From Verrucomicrobiota bacterium (GTDB lineage Bacteria > Verrucomicrobiota > Kiritimatiellia > Kiritimatiellales > Tichowtungiaceae), in NCBI GenBank assembly GCA_020853375.1, contig JADYZA010000053.1, positions 1 to 10,993 on the forward strand: 10,993 nucleotides of DNA. Direction: 5' to 3'. The notes below the pieces were generated by a model. The model searched no databases. It worked only from the letters and a program-made list of their open reading frames with translations, and was not told where the DNA came from. Every line of letters begins with the position of its first letter. Within the stretch, counting starts at the first letter, position 1. Below are positions 1 to 10,494 of the stretch, piece by piece. A program made the position numbers and the translations under genes.

Positions 1-605
1 CCGTTCCAGACCTGATCGGCGGTAAATTTTCCGGGATGGCCGATGCCGTAGGTGAGAAAGCCGCTTTTGACACCGGCGTTATGCGCGACTTCAAGGTCGG
101 TATGGTGGTCGCCGAGCATCCAGACGTTTTCCGTCAGCGCGCCGGATTCTTCTATCAGCGCAATAATGCCATCCGGCGCAGGTTTCAAATTTGGCACATC
201 GCCCCCGCCGATGATGCGGAAAAAGAGATCGCCCACGCCGAGGTGGTTGAGAATTGCCCGCGACGGATTGCCCGGCTTATTGCTGAGTACCGCCAGCAAA
301 TGACCCGCCGCAATCAGCTTTTGCAGTCCGTCCTTCACGCCTGGATAAAGTGTGGTTTCGTCGAGCATGTGTTCGGCATAAAACTTTTTGTCGAGCGCCA
401 GCGCCTCGTCGACATCGATATCCGCGCCTTGCAGCGATCGTTCGACCAGTACGCGAATGCCATCGCCGATAAAGCCCTCAATCGTTTCCATGCTGAGCGG
501 CGGCAGACTGTAATGCGCCCGCATCAGGTTGATGCCGGTCGCCAGATCGGCCCGCGAATCGGCCAGCGTTCCGTCGAGATCAAAAATGAGGAGTTGTTTT
601 TTCAT
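1..605 (-). CDS. Phosphoglycolate phosphatase-like HAD hydrolase (partial, C-terminus beyond left edge)
   Basis: This is a haloacid dehalogenase superfamily phosphatase, closest in pattern to Gph, which hydrolyses 2-phosphoglycolate to glycolate in the cytosol. I read it directly from the minus strand: the first 201 residues are visible and the rest lies outside the window. Motif I is FDLDGTLADS, with nucleophile D9 and acid/base D11. The cap region carries GDGIRVLVERSL (about 47-58), typical of Gph. Motif II is the serine in VLSNKPG (S108), motif III is K141 in NLKPAPD, and motif IV is GDHHTD (D166, D170). Family members are about 215-230 residues, so little is missing. The ATG shares one base (605) with the gcvT stop codon (TGATG), which implies translational coupling as the last visible gene of the operon. 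Substrate is inferred; other HAD phosphatases share these motifs. Confidence 0.88.
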   Translation of the reverse strand, partial: MKKQLLIFDLDGTLADSRADLATGINLMRAHYSLPPLSMETIEGFIGDGIRVLVERSLQGADIDVDEALALDKKFYAEHMLDETTLYPGVKDGLQKLIAAGHLLAVLSNKPGNPSRAILNHLGVGDLFFRIIGGGDVPNLKPAPDGIIALIEESGALTENVWMLGDHHTDLEVAHNAGVKSGFLTYGIGHPGKFTADQVWN

Positions 606-1684
606 CAGCCTCGCGCGGTTCCGTTTTTGTAGAAAGGCAGTTCGACCACTTTGGCGGGGAAAAGTTTTCCGCGGATTTCGACATCCAGAATGGTGCCGGT
701 AGTGGCGTGATCGGCTTTGACAAAGGCGAGCGCGACGGCTTTTCCAAGGCTTGGAGAAACAGAACCGCTGGTGACGCTCCCTATTTCCAATCCTTGGAAA
801 ACCACTTTGTCGAGAGAACGGGCGGCGCGTTTGCTGTCGAATTCCAGCGCGACCAGAAATTCCGGCGGGTTCGCGAGGTCGCGGCGGACAGCGGCTTCGC
901 CGATGAATCCGCCTTCCTTGCGGATGAATCCGCCACGGCTGGTGGCGACCGGTGTTCGGTCGAGCGAAAGTTCATGGCCGTAAAGCGAGTAGCCCATTTC
1001 GAGCCGGAGCGTGTCGCGCGCGCCGAGGCCGACCGGTTTGATGTTCGGGTTGGCGAGCAATGTGCGCCAGATCCGGACGGCATCTTTCGTCGGAAAATAG
1101 AGTTCATAACCCCAATCGCCGGTGTACCCGGTGCGGCTGACGAGCATTTCGGTTTCCAAGCATTGGAACGGTTCGGCTTTGAAATATCCAAGCTCCGGAA
1201 GTTTTTTGCCGATAACCGCTTCGATTTCGACGCGCGAGGTCGGCCCCTGCACGTCGAGTTTGGCCATGCCGTCGGAAAGATCGGTGAAAACGGTTTGCGG
1301 TGAAAGGTGCTGGCGGATCCATGCCGAGTCGCCTTCGAGCGTGGCGGCGTTGACGACGAGCATGTAGCGCTCTTCGCCAAGGCGGTAACAGGTGAGATCG
1401 TCGATGACGCCGCCCTGCTCGTTGAGCATGAAGCCGTAACGGCACTGGCCAACGGTCAGCGTGGAGACTTTCATGGTCAGCAGACGCTCGAGATCAGCGA
1501 CGGCGGTTTGGCCATTCAGCTCAAACTCGCCCATATGGCAGATATCGAACAGTCCGGTTTTGGTGCGGGTGTGTTCATGTTCGGCAAGAATCCCTTCGTA
1601 CTGGATCGGCATATCCCAGCCGCCGAATTCAGCCATGCGAGCGCCCAGGGCAATGTGTTCTTTATGAAGCGGTGTCGTTTTCAA
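605..1684 (-). CDS. gcvT: Glycine cleavage system T-protein (aminomethyltransferase)
   Basis: GcvT transfers the aminomethyl carbon from lipoyl-H-protein to tetrahydrofolate, releasing ammonia and giving 5,10-methylene-THF. Family signatures run the full length: KTTPLHKEH at the start, AEFGGWDMPIQY, a GGVIDDL segment with the conserved aspartates (D95-D96), then SRTGYTGDWGYELYF, LGARDTLRLEMGYSLYGHEL, and a C-terminal barrel with FIGEAA and a GSVTSGSVSPSLGKAVALA stretch. About 359 residues is normal for the family. Start choice: a TTG at 1684 overlaps the stop of the upstream HAD gene (TTGA) and has AAGGAG at 1701-1696, 11 bases upstream. It also fits the usual N-terminus. An in-frame ATG at 1705 would add seven residues (MEGVKAV) but has no clear ribosome site. 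No gcvH or gcvP is in view. Three copies of the TCCAA-N3-TTGGA palindrome lie inside the gene. Confidence 0.95.
   Translation of the reverse strand: MKTTPLHKEHIALGARMAEFGGWDMPIQYEGILAEHEHTRTKTGLFDICHMGEFELNGQTAVADLERLLTMKVSTLTVGQCRYGFMLNEQGGVIDDLTCYRLGEERYMLVVNAATLEGDSAWIRQHLSPQTVFTDLSDGMAKLDVQGPTSRVEIEAVIGKKLPELGYFKAEPFQCLETEMLVSRTGYTGDWGYELYFPTKDAVRIWRTLLANPNIKPVGLGARDTLRLEMGYSLYGHELSLDRTPVATSRGGFIRKEGGFIGEAAVRRDLANPPEFLVALEFDSKRAARSLDKVVFQGLEIGSVTSGSVSPSLGKAVALAFVKADHATTGTILDVEIRGKLFPAKVVELPFYKNGTARG
743..755. repeat. Interspersed palindrome copy 1 (TCCAA-GGC-TTGGA)
   Basis: Perfect 5-base arms around GGC, flanked by TTT and GAAA. It lies in gcvT, where it encodes part of PSLGK. Confidence 0.75.
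784..800. repeat. Interspersed palindrome copy 2 (TTTCCAA-TCC-TTGGAAA)
   Basis: Perfect 7-base arms around TCC, only 28 bases from copy 1. It lies in gcvT and encodes FQGLE. Confidence 0.8.
1154..1168. repeat. Interspersed palindrome copy 3 (TTCCAA-GCA-TTGGAA)
   Basis: Perfect 6-base arms around GCA. It lies in gcvT and encodes FQCLE. Confidence 0.8.
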
Positions 1685-2313
1685 AACTGCTTTAACTCCT
1701 TCCATGTGTATCGCGGAACGCCTTCAACCGATCGTCCAGTTCCATTTTCAATCATCACCACCGGACAACCAGCCGCCTGCGCGGCCGCGACCCCGGCGGG
1801 GCTATCCTCAAAAACCATCACATCGTCCGGCGCAAGCTTTAGATTCTTCAGCGTCGTTTCATACATCTCAGGATCCGGCTTGCGGTGCGTCACGTCATCA
1901 GCCGTAATCACCGATTCAAATAGATCGATCAGTTTGGCGCCGACCAGCGCCTGCTTAACAAATAACCGCTGGGAATTCGTGGCCAAAGCCATACGCATCT
2001 GTTTCCGCCATTTGTGGATAAAAACATCGGCGTCAGAAAATACCTCCACTTGGAAATGCCGATCCAGATAGCGCCGTTTCTGATCCAGAACATCCGCAAG
2101 ATTCAGCTTCAGCCCGTGCCGGGCGGATAGAAGCGGAGTGATTGCACCGCTGTGAGACTCAAAAAACTCGCGCCGCTCATCCGGAGTCAACCGGTAGCCG
2201 CTCAGCGTTTCGATGGCGTAGGCAAAACCGTCGGCGTGATACTTCTCGGAATTGATCAATGTCCCGTCCAAATCGAAAATGAAGGCTTTATATTCGTCCA
2301 AGTAGGTTTTCAT
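1681..2313 (-). CDS. HAD superfamily hydrolase, beta-phosphoglucomutase/phosphatase-like
   Basis: A 210-residue HAD subfamily IA protein with a helical cap. Motif I is FDLDGTLINSE (D14 nucleophile, D16), motif II is ATNSQ (T112), motif III is K145 in HRKPDPEMY, and motif IV is VFEDSPAGVAAAQAAG (E169-D170). The DLDGTLINSE start and the EDSPAG motif are typical of beta-phosphoglucomutases and of sugar-phosphate phosphatases, which cannot be separated by eye. It is the first gene of a minus-strand operon: its TGA overlaps the likely TTG start of gcvT, and a second HAD follows gcvT. No strong ribosome site precedes the ATG. The promoter must lie in the 63-base region shared with the divergent VanZ-like gene. 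The family call is firm; the substrate is unknown. Confidence 0.9.
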   Translation of the reverse strand: MKTYLDEYKAFIFDLDGTLINSEKYHADGFAYAIETLSGYRLTPDERREFFESHSGAITPLLSARHGLKLNLADVLDQKRRYLDRHFQVEVFSDADVFIHKWRKQMRMALATNSQRLFVKQALVGAKLIDLFESVITADDVTHRKPDPEMYETTLKNLKLAPDDVMVFEDSPAGVAAAQAAGCPVVMIENGTGRSVEGVPRYTWKELKQF

Positions 2314-2325
2314 AAGGGCGTTTAA

Positions 2326-2352
2326 TTTCCAGTATAAAACTTCCGCTGGAAA
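2326..2352. promoter_or_regulatory. Inverted repeat in the divergent HAD / VanZ-like intergenic region
   Basis: TTTCCAG (2326-2332) and CTGGAAA (2346-2352) form a perfect 7-base inverted repeat around 13 bases, inside the 63-base gap between two divergently transcribed genes. The spacer holds AGTATAAAAC, which reads as TATAAA on the plus strand (2333-2338) and TATACT on the minus strand (2336-2331), so -10 elements in either or both directions are plausible. No good -35 box stands out. The repeat could be a shared operator or a leader hairpin. Its arms resemble the TTTCCAA half-sites found elsewhere in the window, but the spacing differs. Confidence 0.35.
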
Positions 2353-2376
2353 GAAACTTTTGAGAGATTGTTTCCG

Positions 2377-3558
2377 ATGTTCGGAAAAACCTCCAAGCGA
2401 AACTTCTTTATCGGTGCTCTGGCGCTCTTGACGGTTGGCTCCATGGCGCTGTTTTACAACCTTTACGAGCCGTGGATTCCGGTCGGAAAGGAACTGATTC
2501 CGGACGGCGGGTTCAACACTGCGGCGGCCACCAATGTCTGGAGCGGATGGAATGAGCGTACCCGGCTGGTTGCGGACGGAGGCTTCGACGGATCGCCGGG
2601 CGTCGTATTAACGACTTCGCCGGGACAAAATGGGATCCTACGCTTCACGATATATAACCTGACAAACATCCCCGCTTTCCGTGTCTCCATGCGGGCTAAG
2701 GCGCAGGGCGTTGTCCGGGGTAAAGAAGGACATCACGTTCCGCGCGCCATTTTTTTCTTCCACGACACCAATGCAAAAAGCCTGTACAGCTTGCATCATG
2801 GCGTGATGGACATCACCCGAGATGCCGACTGGCAGTATTACAAAGATTTCTTTCCGGTTCCCCAGAATGCCGCAAACGCCCGCCTGCATATTCAAAACCT
2901 CGGGGCCGCCGGAATCATGCAGATTGACGATGTCTCGGTGATTCCGGTCCGCGAACGGCTCTCCGCCCCGTGGTGGAAAATGTTTTTCGGCACCTTATGG
3001 ACGATTTCGTTCAGCCTTTGCCTGTTCGCCCTGCGGCCTTGGGCTCGCCGCTATGGACTGATGATTACGGCAACCTTGGCGCTGATCATGACCGGCATTA
3101 TTCTTCCCGGGAAATTTCTGGATGATTCCATCGTGAAATCAATCCGTGTCATCAAAGATCTGGATGAGAAACGTGTTGCACCCGCATCTCCAGTTCAAGT
3201 GGAAAAAGCGGTGCCGGAGCAACCCGTCAGACCTAAACCGCTCAAACCGAAAGATGAGCCGATACTGTCCGGAACCGGAGTCGAGCGGACGCATGTCATG
3301 GGTCACTTCGTTCTCTTCAGTCTGCTGGCATTTCTCTCGGCGCTGTCGTGGGTTCCCTCGCCACCTTCACTGAAACGAATCGTCGCCGTATGCAGCGGAC
3401 TGATCTTTTTCGCCGCAGCAACCGAAGTGCTCCAATTTATTCCGGCCGGACGATCGGCCGGGTTAAGCGATCTGCAAATTGACATCGTCGGCATGACCGG
3501 CGCGGTGATGGCGGTGTTTATCCTGCGCAGTTTCCAGCGCCTTACGCTCCGTGATTAA
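2377..3558 (+). CDS. Membrane protein with periplasmic beta-rich domain and C-terminal VanZ-like domain
   Basis: Predicted inner-membrane protein of 393 residues. TM1 spans about 10-30. It is followed by a soluble region (31-198) whose tail, IDDVSVIPVRER, and alternating strands resemble carbohydrate-binding jelly-roll modules. Two membrane segments follow (about 199-222 and 228-248), then a proline/lysine-rich linker (about 268-295), then a VanZ-like unit with three membrane segments (about 310-328, 333-353, 368-390). VanZ-type residues visible are H306/H310 entering the first helix, E350 and Q353 in TEVLQF, the GR of PAGRSAG, and a D/G-rich entry to the last helix. The role of VanZ-like domains is poorly defined; the name comes from a teicoplanin-resistance gene, and resistance should not be assumed here. 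I chose ATG 2377, with GAGA about 10 bases upstream, over an in-frame TTG three codons earlier. The gap to the next gene is 44 bases, so cotranscription is likely. Confidence 0.75.
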   Translation: MFGKTSKRNFFIGALALLTVGSMALFYNLYEPWIPVGKELIPDGGFNTAAATNVWSGWNERTRLVADGGFDGSPGVVLTTSPGQNGILRFTIYNLTNIPAFRVSMRAKAQGVVRGKEGHHVPRAIFFFHDTNAKSLYSLHHGVMDITRDADWQYYKDFFPVPQNAANARLHIQNLGAAGIMQIDDVSVIPVRERLSAPWWKMFFGTLWTISFSLCLFALRPWARRYGLMITATLALIMTGIILPGKFLDDSIVKSIRVIKDLDEKRVAPASPVQVEKAVPEQPVRPKPLKPKDEPILSGTGVERTHVMGHFVLFSLLAFLSALSWVPSPPSLKRIVAVCSGLIFFAAATEVLQFIPAGRSAGLSDLQIDIVGMTGAVMAVFILRSFQRLTLRD

Positions 3559-3602
3559 CGTTGATCGAAGCTGATCACGCCGTTATCCTGTCCCGCTTCA
3601 TT

Positions 3603-6488
3603 ATGAATAAATTCAAACTCATCCGGGAACAGTTCGTCAGGGAATTCAACGGCACGGTTAAGGAATACCGCCATGAACCGACCGGAGCGGAAGTTATTTC
3701 GGTCGAGAACACGCACAACAACAAAGTATTCGGCATCACTTTTCGCACGCCGCCGTCCGATTCCACGGGGGTCGCGCATATCCTGGAACACACCGTTCTT
3801 TGCGGGTCGCGCAAATATCCGCTGAAAGATCCCTTCGTCCAGCTTCTGAAAGGCTCCCTGCAAACCTTTCTGAACGCCATGACCTATCCCGACAAAACGG
3901 TCTATCCGGTCGCCAGCCAGAACGAGCAGGATTTCTACAACCTCGTCGACGTTTATCTAGACGCCGTTTTTTTTCCGCGCATTACACCCGATTTTTTCCA
4001 GCAGGAAGGCTGGCATTACGAACTCGAAAACCTCGATGCCCCGCTCACCTGCAAAGGCGTTGTGTACAACGAAATGAAAGGCGCCTATTCCTCGCCGGAC
4101 AACCTTCTGCTCGAACGTTCCCAGCAGGCTCTTTTTCCCGACACCACGTACGGACTCGACTCCGGCGGAAGCCCGGCAAAAATCCCGACGCTGACCTATT
4201 CGGATTTCCGGAAATTCCACGAGACTCATTATCATCCTTCCAACGCCCGCATTTTCTTTTATGGCAACGATAATCCCGAACACCGCCTGAAAATCCTCGG
4301 CGAATACCTCGACCGTTTCCAACCTTTGGAAAATCCGCCCGATTCTTCCGTTCCGCTGCAAAAGCCGTTCGACAAACCGGTGCTGGTTGAAGAAACCTAC
4401 GCCGTCAGCGAAGGGGAAACCCACGCTTTCACTACCGTAAACTGGGCCATTCCCGATGGAATCCTTCATTTCGCCCTTATCATCCTCGACCAGATTCTCA
4501 CCGGAAACTCCGGTTCGCCACTGCGTAAAGCGCTGATTGAATCCGGCCTTGGTGAGGATATCGCCGGGTTCGGGCTCGAAACCAATCTGCGCCAGCCCGC
4601 CTGGTCTATCGGCATGAAAGGCGTCGAGATTCCAAACCTTGGAAAAGTTGAAGAACTGATCTTCCAATCTCTGGAAAAACTCGCCCGCGACGGCATTGAC
4701 CGCGGAGAGATCGAGGCAGCTATGAACTCGTTCGAGTTCGATTTGCGCGAAAACAACCACGGTAGTTTTCCGCAGGGGCTTTCCGTCATGCTCAACATGC
4801 TTGAAACATGGCTCTATGGCTGGGATCCGCTCGGCCTCGCCGCTTACGAACATCCGCTGGCGGAACTCAAAAATAAGCTGTCCGCCGATCCTCGCTATTT
4901 CGAAACGCTAATCGAAAACATTCTGCTCAAAAACACCCATCGCGCCACCGTCCGGCTCATTCCGGACACGGATAAGGCGGCCCGCGACGAGGCGGACGAA
5001 AAAGCACGCATGAAGGCCGTCCGCGACGCGATGAGTTCCGAAGAGCTGGCCCGCACTGTGGCGGCCACCGCAAGCTTGCTTTCCATGCAACAGACACCGG
5101 ATACGCACGAAGCCATCAAAACGCTGCCCCTGCTCAAACGCGCCGATCTGGATAAAAAAATCCGCACCATTCCGCGGGCCGTCGAACCGCGCGATAACGC
5201 CACGGTCCTTTTCCACGAAATTTTCACCGGCGGCATCGTTTATGTGGACATCGGTTTCAATCTTCACGCCGTCACCGCCGAAGACCTGCCATGGGTTTCG
5301 CTCCTCGGCAGTATGCTTCTCGAAATGGGCACGCAGAAAGAGGATTTCGGCTCGCTCGCCCGGCGCATCGCGCAGAAAACCGGTGGTATTCACACCTGCC
5401 CTTTCCTCGCCGCGCTGGAAGGTTCTCCGGAAAGTGCCGCGCATCTTTTCCTGCGCGGAAAATGTATGAGCGGGCAGACCGGCGACCTCTTTGATCTGCT
5501 GCACGACATTCTTTTCACGCCGGCTTTTAACAACCGGAAACGCTTCAGAGAAATTCTGCTGGAACAGAAAGCCGAAATGGAAGGTTCGCTTGTTCCCAGC
5601 GGACATTCCGCCGTCATGTCCCGGTTGAAAGCCCATTACCACGAAGCCCATCGCGCGGGCGAAGCGCTAAGCGGAATCGATGCGCTGTTTTTCCACCGCG
5701 CCATGCAGAAGAAAATGAAAGAAGACTGGCCCGGCACGGTCGCACGACTCGAAAGTATTCTGCAAAAACTCCTCGCCGGTGGACTGATCGTCAATATCAC
5801 CGCCGACGGCAAAGACCGCGTGCCGGCTATCCAATCGTTGGAAAAATTCCTCATCCATTTTCCAAAGACCGGAAGCCATCCGTCCAATGTCTGGAAATTT
5901 CAGGAAACGCAACCGCAGTCTGAAGCTCTACTGATTTCATCGAGCGTCAACTACGTCGGCCGCGCCATTAACCTGTTCGACAACGGCTATAAAATGGATG
6001 GCTCGGCACTCGTCATCACCAAATACCTGCGCACCGCCTGGCTCTGGGAAAAAATCCGTGTGCAAGGCGGAGCGTACGGTGCCAGCTGCGGGTTTGATCC
6101 AAACTGCGGCGTACTCGCCTTTGCCTCATACCGCGACCCAAACCTCGCCGAAACGCTTGCGGCCTACGGGCAAACCGCTGAATTCCTGAAAAACCTTCAA
6201 CTGGATGAAGACGAACTGACCCGCGCGCTGATCGGCGCTATTGGCGGAATCGACAGCTATCTGTTGCCCGATGCCAAAGGGTATGCCGATATGGTTCGTT
6301 ATCTGACCGGGCAGACCGACGAAAAGCGGCAGAAACTGCGCGAGGAACTTCTCTCGACAACCGCCAAGGATTTCAAGGAATTCGCCGACTTCCTGAGTAT
6401 GGAAAAGGCCGTCACCTCCGTCCTCAGCGCATCGGACGTCATCCGGAAGTGCGGCATCGCCTTCCAAAGCACCATCAAGGTGCTCTGA
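3603..6488 (+). CDS. Presequence protease-type zinc metallopeptidase (M16C, PreP/Cym1-like)
   Basis: A 961-residue inverzincin that degrades free peptides in a closed chamber; in organelles the family clears cleaved targeting peptides. The zinc site is HILEH (H59, E62 as base, H63), followed by the signature TVLCGSRKYPLKDPF and NAMTYPDKTVYPVAS. The distal zinc ligand is E157 in VVYNEMKG. The C-terminal half supplies the substrate-orienting pair R819 and Y825 in KIRVQGGAYG. All catalytic residues are present and the length suits M16C (about 970-1000). No signal peptide is visible, so a cytosolic location is inferred. ATG 3603 gives MNKFKLIREQF, which matches the usual family start; a TTG 14 codons earlier adds unrelated residues. 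No clear Shine-Dalgarno precedes the ATG. Three perfect copies and one near-copy of the TCCAA-N3-TTGGA palindrome lie inside. Confidence 0.93.
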   Translation: MNKFKLIREQFVREFNGTVKEYRHEPTGAEVISVENTHNNKVFGITFRTPPSDSTGVAHILEHTVLCGSRKYPLKDPFVQLLKGSLQTFLNAMTYPDKTVYPVASQNEQDFYNLVDVYLDAVFFPRITPDFFQQEGWHYELENLDAPLTCKGVVYNEMKGAYSSPDNLLLERSQQALFPDTTYGLDSGGSPAKIPTLTYSDFRKFHETHYHPSNARIFFYGNDNPEHRLKILGEYLDRFQPLENPPDSSVPLQKPFDKPVLVEETYAVSEGETHAFTTVNWAIPDGILHFALIILDQILTGNSGSPLRKALIESGLGEDIAGFGLETNLRQPAWSIGMKGVEIPNLGKVEELIFQSLEKLARDGIDRGEIEAAMNSFEFDLRENNHGSFPQGLSVMLNMLETWLYGWDPLGLAAYEHPLAELKNKLSADPRYFETLIENILLKNTHRATVRLIPDTDKAARDEADEKARMKAVRDAMSSEELARTVAATASLLSMQQTPDTHEAIKTLPLLKRADLDKKIRTIPRAVEPRDNATVLFHEIFTGGIVYVDIGFNLHAVTAEDLPWVSLLGSMLLEMGTQKEDFGSLARRIAQKTGGIHTCPFLAALEGSPESAAHLFLRGKCMSGQTGDLFDLLHDILFTPAFNNRKRFREILLEQKAEMEGSLVPSGHSAVMSRLKAHYHEAHRAGEALSGIDALFFHRAMQKKMKEDWPGTVARLESILQKLLAGGLIVNITADGKDRVPAIQSLEKFLIHFPKTGSHPSNVWKFQETQPQSEALLISSSVNYVGRAINLFDNGYKMDGSALVITKYLRTAWLWEKIRVQGGAYGASCGFDPNCGVLAFASYRDPNLAETLAAYGQTAEFLKNLQLDEDELTRALIGAIGGIDSYLLPDAKGYADMVRYLTGQTDEKRQKLREELLSTTAKDFKEFADFLSMEKAVTSVLSASDVIRKCGIAFQSTIKVL
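4316..4332. repeat. Interspersed palindrome copy 4 (TTTCCAA-CCT-TTGGAAA)
   Basis: Perfect 7-base arms around CCT, in the M16C peptidase gene, encoding FQPLE. Confidence 0.8.
4630..4644. repeat. Interspersed palindrome copy 5 (TTCCAA-ACC-TTGGAA)
   Basis: Perfect 6-base arms around ACC in the peptidase gene, in the second reading phase (encodes PNLGK). A one-mismatch relative, TTCCAA-TCT-CTGGAA, follows at 4662-4676 and encodes FQSLE. Confidence 0.8.
5830..5842. repeat. Interspersed palindrome copy 6 (TCCAA-TCG-TTGGA)
   Basis: Perfect 5-base arms around TCG in the peptidase gene, encoding IQSLE. A half-site TTTTCCAA follows at about 5858-5865. Confidence 0.75.
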
Positions 6489-9300: not shown

Positions 9301-10494
9301 ATGATCAACAAACCCCGTGTTACACCGAGCCAAATTGTAGTCTTTATCACCACATTGCTAGCCTCATCACTTCTCCTTGCAGACGGTTTTCGAAATCCGC
9401 CGGAGGGTGCGCGCGCTGTAGGCGCATTCGGTGGACATCGCGCCTTCGCGGACGATGCCAACGCCAATATCCATAACTCCGCCAACCTCGTTGACCTTGA
9501 ACAGCCAATGGTTCAGTACAACACGACGTTCGGATACGGACGAACAACATTTGACCGCCCCGGCGTATCCGAGAAGACAGGAAATCCTTTCTTCGCCATT
9601 CCGGGTTTTTCCGCAGCCATTCCTTCCAAAGATGGGAAGTATGCGGCGGGGCTTTCTCTTTATGTGCCCTACGGACGTTCCGTGGAGTGGAAAGATAACG
9701 GCTACTTTGCCGCCAACGGAATGTCATATGCGGGCAGTATGACGGTTGCCGATCTCACCCCGAACTTCGCAATGCGCCTTTGTGATTCACTGTCTATCGG
9801 GATCGGCGCGGACCTTTATTATGGCGCAGTCAAGCAATGGACCTACGTTGGCCCCGGCGTGAAATCAAAACTGGTAGCGGACGGACAAGCCATTGGCTGG
9901 AATGCCGCAATGACTTGGAAAATGACCGAGAAACAACGCCTGACAGCCACCTATCGGTCTCCCTTCAAAATAAAATATACCGGTAACGATTACATTACCG
10001 GCGGAACAAAAAGTGATGTTGACGCAACGATTGAGTATCCAACGATCGTCGGTCTGGCCTACGGGATTCAACTGACCGACACACTGCGTGCCGAAGTCAA
10101 CGGAGAGTGGCTCGATTTTTCTCAGTATGAGTCATTGACCATCCATGATCCGGCGATTGCATGGCCGGTAAGCCAGCAACGCCTAAAAGACACTTGGACC
10201 GCCGGCACGGGTCTAGCTTGGAATTTTAAGCCGAAATGGACACTTCGGTCTGGTTTTATGTACCTCAAGAACCCCACACCGAACGATACCTACGGGCCGC
10301 TCAGTCCAGATGAGGATCAAGGAGTCCTCTCTCTCGGTCTTGGTTATGAAATAGAAAATCATTCGATCGATGTTGGATATGCCTACGGACTATTTAACGG
10401 ACGGACTGTCAGCGGAAACCAGTACCCCGCTTGTAATGGAAATTACGATTATAATGTTCACCTGCTCAGCCTTTCCTATGGCTACAAGTTCTAG
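9301..10494 (+). CDS. FadL/OMPP1/TodX-family outer-membrane transport protein
   Basis: A 397-residue outer-membrane beta-barrel that lets hydrophobic molecules (long-chain fatty acids, aromatics, alkanes) across the outer membrane. Residues 1-27 are a signal peptide with a hydrophobic core (IVVFITTLLASSLLL) and a signal-peptidase I site after LLA. The mature start, DGFRNPPEGARAVGAFGGHRAFADDANANIHN, matches the FadL N-terminal hatch pattern (G-F-x-x-x-P-x-GAR...ADDA...N-x-A). Alternating aromatic strands follow, and the protein ends YGYKF, the terminal phenylalanine expected for Bam-dependent insertion. The length is typical (about 400-450). ATG 9301 has AGGAG 11 bases upstream; an in-frame TTG 15 codons earlier would place charged residues ahead of the signal peptide and was rejected. 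The next gene starts 11 bases later, so the two are probably cotranscribed. The substrate is unknown. Confidence 0.9.
   Translation: MINKPRVTPSQIVVFITTLLASSLLLADGFRNPPEGARAVGAFGGHRAFADDANANIHNSANLVDLEQPMVQYNTTFGYGRTTFDRPGVSEKTGNPFFAIPGFSAAIPSKDGKYAAGLSLYVPYGRSVEWKDNGYFAANGMSYAGSMTVADLTPNFAMRLCDSLSIGIGADLYYGAVKQWTYVGPGVKSKLVADGQAIGWNAAMTWKMTEKQRLTATYRSPFKIKYTGNDYITGGTKSDVDATIEYPTIVGLAYGIQLTDTLRAEVNGEWLDFSQYESLTIHDPAIAWPVSQQRLKDTWTAGTGLAWNFKPKWTLRSGFMYLKNPTPNDTYGPLSPDEDQGVLSLGLGYEIENHSIDVGYAYGLFNGRTVSGNQYPACNGNYDYNVHLLSLSYGYKF

Follow-up and report, generated by a model that had tools for sequence, protein, structure and literature searches.

Helically phased palindromes recur in and between genes of Kiritimatiellia genomes as putative sites of a cooperatively binding dimeric protein

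HIP1 of cyanobacteria (GCGATCGC) is a highly iterated palindrome that is found in coding sequence and has no spacer, the matS site has a palindromic 5-3-5 layout, and DNA uptake sequences (DUS) are non-palindromic, require no second site and are not known to be helically phased. We know of no helical phasing of HIP1, of no phased matS pairs, and of no genome-wide system of sites that is both phased and dialect-forming in the way described below. The respective papers describe DUS and the related USS as present in about one thousand to three thousand copies, within and between genes, with lineage dialects and with bases of unequal weight (PMC3630211); matS as a 13-bp site on the chromosome for the architectural protein MatP, with 23 sites in one 800-kb domain (PMC3330122); Lrp/AsnC sites as imperfect inverted repeats of 13–17 bp, spaced by two or three turns along a single face of the DNA, where oligomers bend or wrap it (PMC2995911); and NrdR boxes as paired about three turns apart (15–16 bp between boxes), with four turns tolerated, and bound by a tetramer (PMC12051234).

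The palindrome analyzed here partly resembles several of these classes. It is similar to DUS and USS in copy number, genic and intergenic spread, dialects and unequal weight of bases, whereas the palindromic form and the phasing are its own. Site size and layout are close to those of matS, but matS is described with 23 sites in a single 800-kb domain, and this motif numbers hundreds of sites genome-wide. NrdR boxes show the same three-turn pairing, but they have another sequence and are few, located before ribonucleotide reductase operons. The motif has the geometry of Lrp/AsnC operators (dyads of 13–17 bp, whole-turn phasing), but a G/C middle base in place of their AT-rich center; like HIP1, it is an iterated genic palindrome, but one with a spacer. 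The combination, with its partial likeness to DUS, matS and Lrp or NrdR operators, appears to be new: searches of open-access papers for the motif itself found none, and among the matches listed for palindromes in Kiritimatiell-, Verrucomicrobia, Pontiella and Tichowtungi- taxa and for iterated palindromes, no title or abstract opening pointed to such a motif.

The window, that is, the whole stretch of DNA analyzed, comprises 10,993 nucleotides (contig JADYZA010000053.1 of assembly GCA_020853375.1). A preliminary description had reported six palindromes with TCCAA/TTGGA arms and three spacer bases, together with one near-copy, and all of these positions were confirmed. The features of the window are as follows.

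605..1705, minus strand: gcvT, aminomethyltransferase gene (Pfam GCV_T); hosts dyads 1–3, not part of the system
742..756, no strand: dyad 1 (TTCCAAGGCTTGGAG), in gcvT; 10 core arm bases exact; exact core in the same alignment column in G412, G409, G032, G406 and G407
785..799, no strand: dyad 2, in gcvT; 12/12 arm bases exact; 43 bp (4 turns) from dyad 1
1154..1168, no strand: dyad 3, in gcvT; exact; also in G032
1186..1200, no strand: degenerate dyad; 3 mismatches; 32 bp (3 turns) from dyad 3
3603..6488, plus strand: gene for an M16C/PreP-type peptidase (Pfam M16C_assoc, PreP_C); hosts dyads 4–6, not part of the system
4317..4331, no strand: dyad 4, in the M16C peptidase gene; exact; also in G407, G321 and G032
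4630..4644, no strand: dyad 5, in the M16C peptidase gene; exact; also in G412, G409, G406, G407, G321 and G032
4662..4676, no strand: near-dyad; 1 mismatch; 32 bp (3 turns) from dyad 5; exact core in G409, G407, G321 and G032
5829..5843, no strand: dyad 6, in the M16C peptidase gene; 10 core arm bases exact; also in G409, G406 and G032
5860..5874, no strand: degenerate dyad; 2 mismatches; 31 bp from dyad 6
5882..5896, no strand: degenerate dyad; 2/12 mismatches; 22 bp beyond the copy at 5860..5874; exact core in G412, G409, G407, G321, G032 and motif-poor G003
9624..9638, no strand: near-dyad; 1 mismatch; in a FadL-like gene
2372 and 9678: degenerate copies with 2 and 3 mismatches, respectively, from a scan of the 12 arm bases allowing up to 3 mismatches

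The degenerate dyad at 1186..1200 is weak and may have arisen by chance. In total, the window contains 6 exact sites and 9 with at most one mismatch, compared with 0.41 (largest 3) in 200 dinucleotide shuffles. The recurrence noticed between positions 743 and 5842 was borne out, although it extends over the whole genome, and the two reading phases originally noted become all three when near-copies are included (FQxLE, PxxGK and SNxWK). The M16 protein is 70–86% identical to relatives in public records that bear names such as Kiritimatiellales, Pontiellaceae and Verrucomicrobia, and these correspond to the genus-mates used here; L019 and G409, for instance, gave identical match coordinates. An Rfam scan of the window and a query of the GenBank phage collection with the M16 gene gave no match.

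The 10-base core TCCAANNNTTGGA occurs in 340 copies in the 1.55-Mb genome that contains the window (an assembly of 1,546,500 bases in 230 contigs, 88% complete), and its reversed control in 2. The preliminary description had proposed counting against codon-shuffled sequence and other spacers, and in the sampled coding sequences (CDS), called by a simple hexamer method made for this analysis, both counts show a large excess that is specific to spacer 3. The core was found 38 times in 124 CDS of this genome, where 20 synonymous codon shuffles averaged 1.4 copies and never exceeded 4, and 45 times in 264 CDS of G081, a relative with a complete 3.88-Mb genome, against 1.65 (maximum 3) under codon shuffling; spacers 0, 1, 2, 4, 5, 6 and 7 yielded 0 in the 124-CDS sample and at most 1 in G081. 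When all 5-base dyads with spacers 0–8 were compared, the motif dyad, in some register, ranked first in the samples from the own genome, G081, G012, G162, G405 plus G388, and G007, and also in four motif-poor genus-mates; it was absent from the top ten in the samples from G029 (26 kb), G050 and G264 (20 kb each) and in outgroup loci.

Chance, or conservation of FQxLE-type peptides at the protein level, thus has a negligible probability as the source of the motif: it is refuted by the codon shuffles (1.4 expected versus 38), and all three frames as well as intergenic DNA carry the motif. What speaks for a peptide contribution is that FQTLE is kept at one M16 position in some orthologs of family f2. 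The preliminary description had pointed to strict conservation of FQxLE in distant homologs, regardless of codon choice, as evidence against a DNA-level signal. In the M16 gene, the f2 orthologs that keep FQTLE, from G397 and G227, are both motif-bearing and have a one-mismatch dyad at this position, and the nearly motif-free G050 has HSTLE. The peptides thus offer the motif some landing places.

Sites with one mismatch (n = 224, from five samples), folded to the half-site T0 T1 C2 C3 A4 A5, have 50, 12, 17, 1, 52 and 92 changes at the respective positions, the second C being nearly invariant (1/224) and the innermost A the most variable (92/224). Changes at A4 are mostly A>G (38/52), and those at A5 likewise (74/92). 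Judged from the sequences, this spectrum looks like that of a protein site. Part of the tolerance at A5 may be synonymous freedom, given that, in the FQxLE frame, neither CAA>CAG nor TTG>CTG changes the amino acid; A5 changes are found too (17/33) in G012, a genome with mostly intergenic sites. A G or C occupies the middle of the spacer in 41/44 sites of the own genome, 40/42 of G012, 13/13 of G162 and 65/69 of the named relatives. The half-site cores, TTCC and GGAA, lie about one helical turn apart, an arrangement in which one dimer could contact a whole dyad from a single side of the helix.

A feature absent from the preliminary description is the helical phasing of neighboring copies. Distances between neighbors cluster at 21/22, 31/32, 42/43, 52/53 and 62/63 bp, that is, at whole helical turns, with a thin tail to 125 bp, and a few are out of phase (among them 17, 29, 34, 40, 65 and 87). 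When adjacent sites that deviate at no more than one of the 12 arm bases are pooled over genomes, R at 10.5 bp is 0.86 (n = 121; best period 10.38), a statistic that takes in related genomes, so that its p value is not independent; it is 0.87 in CDS only (n = 69) and 0.85 elsewhere (n = 52). With up to three mismatches, the motif gives R = 0.58 (n = 297) and the reversed control 0.06 (n = 54). Single genomes are phased on their own: R is 0.88 in the own genome (n = 14), 0.84 in G081 (n = 19), 0.94 in G012 (n = 28), 1.00 in G162 (n = 7) and 0.96 in G386 (n = 17), where a seven-dyad array has steps of 31, 32, 31, 32, 31 and 32 bp (mean 31.5). In the window, nearby copies follow at steps of 43, 32, 32, 31 and 22 bp, three of which depend on copies with 2–3 mismatches, and a sixth, of 54 bp from 9624 to 9678, is in poorer phase. 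The DNA between dyads is mostly unshared, repeated inter-dyad pieces being found in a few arrays of G162 and G090. Two arrays of G090 (L076, 7082–7263, steps 22, 30, 31, 31, 31, 22; L171, 6842–6992, steps 22, 31, 31, 30, 22) have nearly mirror-symmetric steps. A partner with at most 2 mismatches within 75 bp accompanies 18/31 exact sites in the own genome, 19/69 in G081, 34/37 in G012, 30/55 in the motif-rich genus-mates and 2/12 in G405 plus G388; many exact sites are single, with no nearby partner.

Because of this phasing, a nucleoid-type, chromosome-wide protein site fits best among the options raised in the preliminary description, of which a modification target is unlikely. On balance, we consider it somewhat more likely than not that the palindromes are sites of a dimeric protein that binds cooperatively along one face of the DNA, most likely structuring the chromosome. 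A dimeric protein of the Kiritimatiellales lineage would bind the palindromes, and dimers on dyads separated by two to five turns would touch, giving cooperative tetramers or longer runs; dimeric reading and cooperative contact are suggested by the geometry of the sites. The architectural role is suggested by their distribution: with hundreds to thousands of sites in and between genes, the chromosome could be bent, wrapped or bridged.

The fate of individual sites was followed in alignments of the M16 gene (codon-aligned, 14 genomes) and gcvT (DNA-aligned, 9 genomes). Most dyad columns in both are gap-free between species with and without the dyad; length changes in at least one species disturb M16 position ~2270 and gcvT positions ~526 and ~943 (alignment columns). 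Dyad arms agree at 0.936 with motif-rich species, where the rest of the gene agrees at 0.773, and at 0.744 with motif-poor species (rest of the gene, 0.754). At seven ungapped positions in 8 motif-rich and 6 motif-poor species, the exact dyad is kept in 135/216 comparisons with motif-rich and 5/169 with motif-poor species, the comparisons being ordered species pairs and hence not independent. The check at orthologous sites that had been suggested therefore shows dyads retained among motif-rich relatives and hardly among motif-poor ones. Because arm agreement and exact retention are high against motif-rich species only, the constraint acts at the DNA level and mainly in motif-rich genomes. There are exceptions in both directions: motif-rich G081 has no exact M16 dyad and motif-poor G003 has one. 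Motif-poor genus-mates often carry TTCCAG or CTGGAA arms. In the alignments, sites in the two genes turn over mainly by substitution. The selection at the DNA level proposed in the preliminary description is supported by the codon-shuffle excess, the one-mismatch spectrum and the arm retention in motif-rich relatives.

This turnover bears on the suggestion that the dyads stem from a mobile palindrome of the REP/RAYT kind, whose copies entered genes and then decayed. In relatives, dyad positions do contain in-frame insertions of other short sequences, and two dyad positions show a length change between species, but the alignment is gap-free at most dyads of the two genes, which does not show them as insertions, the inter-dyad DNA is mostly unshared, and the one-mismatch spectrum is not plainly mutational; we regard such an origin as highly improbable.

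The insertions themselves, of at least 6 residues in gcvT and M16 of relatives (L018, L019, L020, L024 and L025), amount to seven rows and six events; some look palindromic by eye, and they lie at or beside dyad positions, one of them inside a dyad. Dyads may be insertion hot spots, or insertions and dyads may both favor tolerant loops. Two other insertions, in rluB of L101 and in a VanZ-like gene of L099, are located away from dyads. A repeat with the ends GCCTTCGCC and GGCTTCGGCG was considered and set aside: it is found at 6 places in 3/6 genomes, near dyads in some cases only.

In a scan of 387 genomes of the phylum, counts of the 10-base core are low outside the class, the highest being those of G339 (54), G161 (29) and G289 (28). 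G339 was rejected as a carrier of the same motif: it has 54 copies of TCCAANNNTTGGA but 1 of the 12-base form TTCCAANNNTTGGAA, and thus probably harbors another repeat with the same core. The control numbers 4 in G161 and 0 in G289. Within the class, the common form TTCCANNSNNTGGAA is present in at least 20 copies in 58 of the 146 genomes, which span 13 families, and reaches 3,174 copies in G429, with the control at most 5 in each. The other 88 genomes have at most 17 sites of this form, including G050 (15) and G087 (17) of the same order, and the system therefore looks dispensable. A low count of TTCCANNSNNTGGAA is not always absence: G415 (15) and G267 (17) have phased pairs, some of those in G267 taking the form TTCCATNNNATGGAA, and G007 has 3 sites of the common form but 152 10-base cores, mostly with outer G/C, the form GTCCAANNNTTGGAC accounting for 9 of 15 sites inspected. 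Among 50 G007 sites listed, 34 make up 17 pairs, every one at exactly 32 bp. Thus, inner base, outer base and step all vary across the class as dialects. In a survey that looked for 31/32-bp steps only, the step is 32 bp in 16/16 cases in G423 and 4/4 in G038, 31 bp in 21/23 in G437 and 5/5 in G415, and mixed in other species.

Pairs at 31/32 bp were also found in 13 of ~2.9 million viral contigs, a set whose phasing is partly ascertained because it was found through these very steps. Four contigs could be typed as phage: L087 encodes a terminase, Portal_Mu and a Mu-like protease; L270, a terminase and Portal_Mu; L088, proteins similar to transposase and transposition-protein PHROGs and a small terminase; and L271, a terminase only. 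Some of the nine remaining contigs could be host flanks. The array of L271 comprises seven phased dyads, one of them imperfect, and that of L270 eight by a relaxed pattern. The phage arrays sit in stretches with no called gene, ~0.6–1.7 kb ahead of the gene for the large terminase, from which three small open reading frames (ORFs) separate the L087 array; the L088 pair begins one base behind a small-terminase-like ORF. Gene-poor stretches with phased dyad arrays near terminase genes are present in the Mu-like contigs L270, L271, L086/L087 and L088.

On the chromosomes, CDS contain 40/50 sites in the own genome (coding fraction 0.88), 46/73 in G081, 8/11 in G405, 11/13 in G388, 6/13 in G162 and 11/42 in G012; intergenic DNA is therefore favored, weakly in the own genome and strongly in G012. 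The own CDS sites divide 20/11/9 among the reading frames. Intergenic sites of G012 and G081 are not clearly enriched in convergent, divergent or tandem gaps, and 20 stretches around G081, with 0–14 TTCCANNNNNTGGAA sites each, show no plain ori/ter pattern. The genes that flank arrays are diverse. In the samples, then, the sites are distributed chromosome-wide without promoter or gene-orientation bias, as are those of nucleoid-associated proteins, with G012 preferring intergenic DNA; the genic placement and the lack of orientation bias make them unlike promoters or terminators. This weighs on the proposal that they are operators of a global transcription factor, bound in cooperative pairs and repressing or activating many genes. 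Such pairing at two to four turns is described for NrdR boxes and Lrp sites (PMC12051234, PMC2995911), and arrays stand upstream of or beside terminase genes in the four phage contigs; the location of 40/50 own sites in CDS, the absence of a divergent-gap preference and the diversity of array flanks argue against operators, which we deem improbable.

A target of restriction-modification or methylation, or a HIP1-type palindrome kept by modification, is a very unlikely source of the motif. CCANNNNNTGG does lie within the core, and the array-bearing phage contig L087 encodes a C5 cytosine methyltransferase, but an enzyme site would not be expected to be helically phased, to tolerate A>G changes or to form dialects at several positions, and a cognate restriction enzyme would favor loss of sites.

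The preliminary description had also called for a conserved dyad-binding protein, and the search for one came out negative for Lrp/AsnC and NrdR, which fail to track the motif, and among the array neighbors examined. The geometry of Lrp/AsnC fits, but 51/53 genomes encode one or two copies whatever the motif count; NrdR has one match in each of 39/39 genomes, motif-bearing or motif-free. An autoregulated binder gene beside arrays was likewise rejected, Pfam annotation of 20 and then 10 array neighbors giving no recurrent DNA-binding gene; SMC was the sole gene with a chromosome role among them. An all-against-all comparison of 126 neighbors of 79 arrays yielded five shared groups, namely, M16 (in this genus), pheS, a T2SSK-like protein, DUF1456 and one without identity, and by a rough estimate a few such groups would be expected by chance. 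In 41 loci, the recognition helix of Lrp/AsnC, a family near-universal in the class, is acidic and variable by eye, which is unusual for a specific DNA binder, and does not track the motif.

The main rival of the architectural reading is a signal for DNA uptake or self-recognition, comparable to the DUS of Neisseria or the USS of Haemophilus, in which a receptor would prefer dyad-bearing DNA, and transformation and recombination would spread the sites. A large excess over shuffles and lineage dialects, both of the DUS type, were seen, and the population pattern as a whole is DUS-like, with hundreds to thousands of genic and intergenic copies, substitutional turnover, unique variants and lineage-specific dialects (PMC3630211). 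Matches to ComEC were found in 30/30 motif-bearing genomes, and the only two of 41 genomes with no match, G300 and G139, are both motif-free; but ComEC is present as well in 9/11 genomes that are motif-free or nearly so. Helical phasing and the 17 G007 pairs at exactly 32 bp are unexpected for an uptake signal, and it is not obvious how uptake would profit from arrays concentrated at a single place in Mu-like phage contigs. Altogether, we hold this explanation to be rather unlikely. A long ComEC-like open frame (1,130–1,369 codons), mostly beside an ordinary ComEC, was observed in 10/30 motif-bearing genomes (G095, G056, G206, G074, G068, G090, G104, G267, G007 and G242) and in 0/11 motif-free or nearly motif-free ones.

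The architectural reading can be extended, tentatively, to a chromosome-wide self code: a clade-specific protein would polymerize along one DNA face on phased genic and intergenic dyads, the code would drift into dialects of half-site and step, and Mu-like phages would carry arrays near their packaging genes, either using the host protein or passing as self. We consider this broader scheme possible but doubtful. Protein-like sites by the hundreds to thousands in the coding sequence of whole genomes, helically phased and split into dialects, would amount to a record of coevolution between a chromosome-organizing or self-recognizing protein and its sites, and would make the geometry of binding readable from sequence alone.
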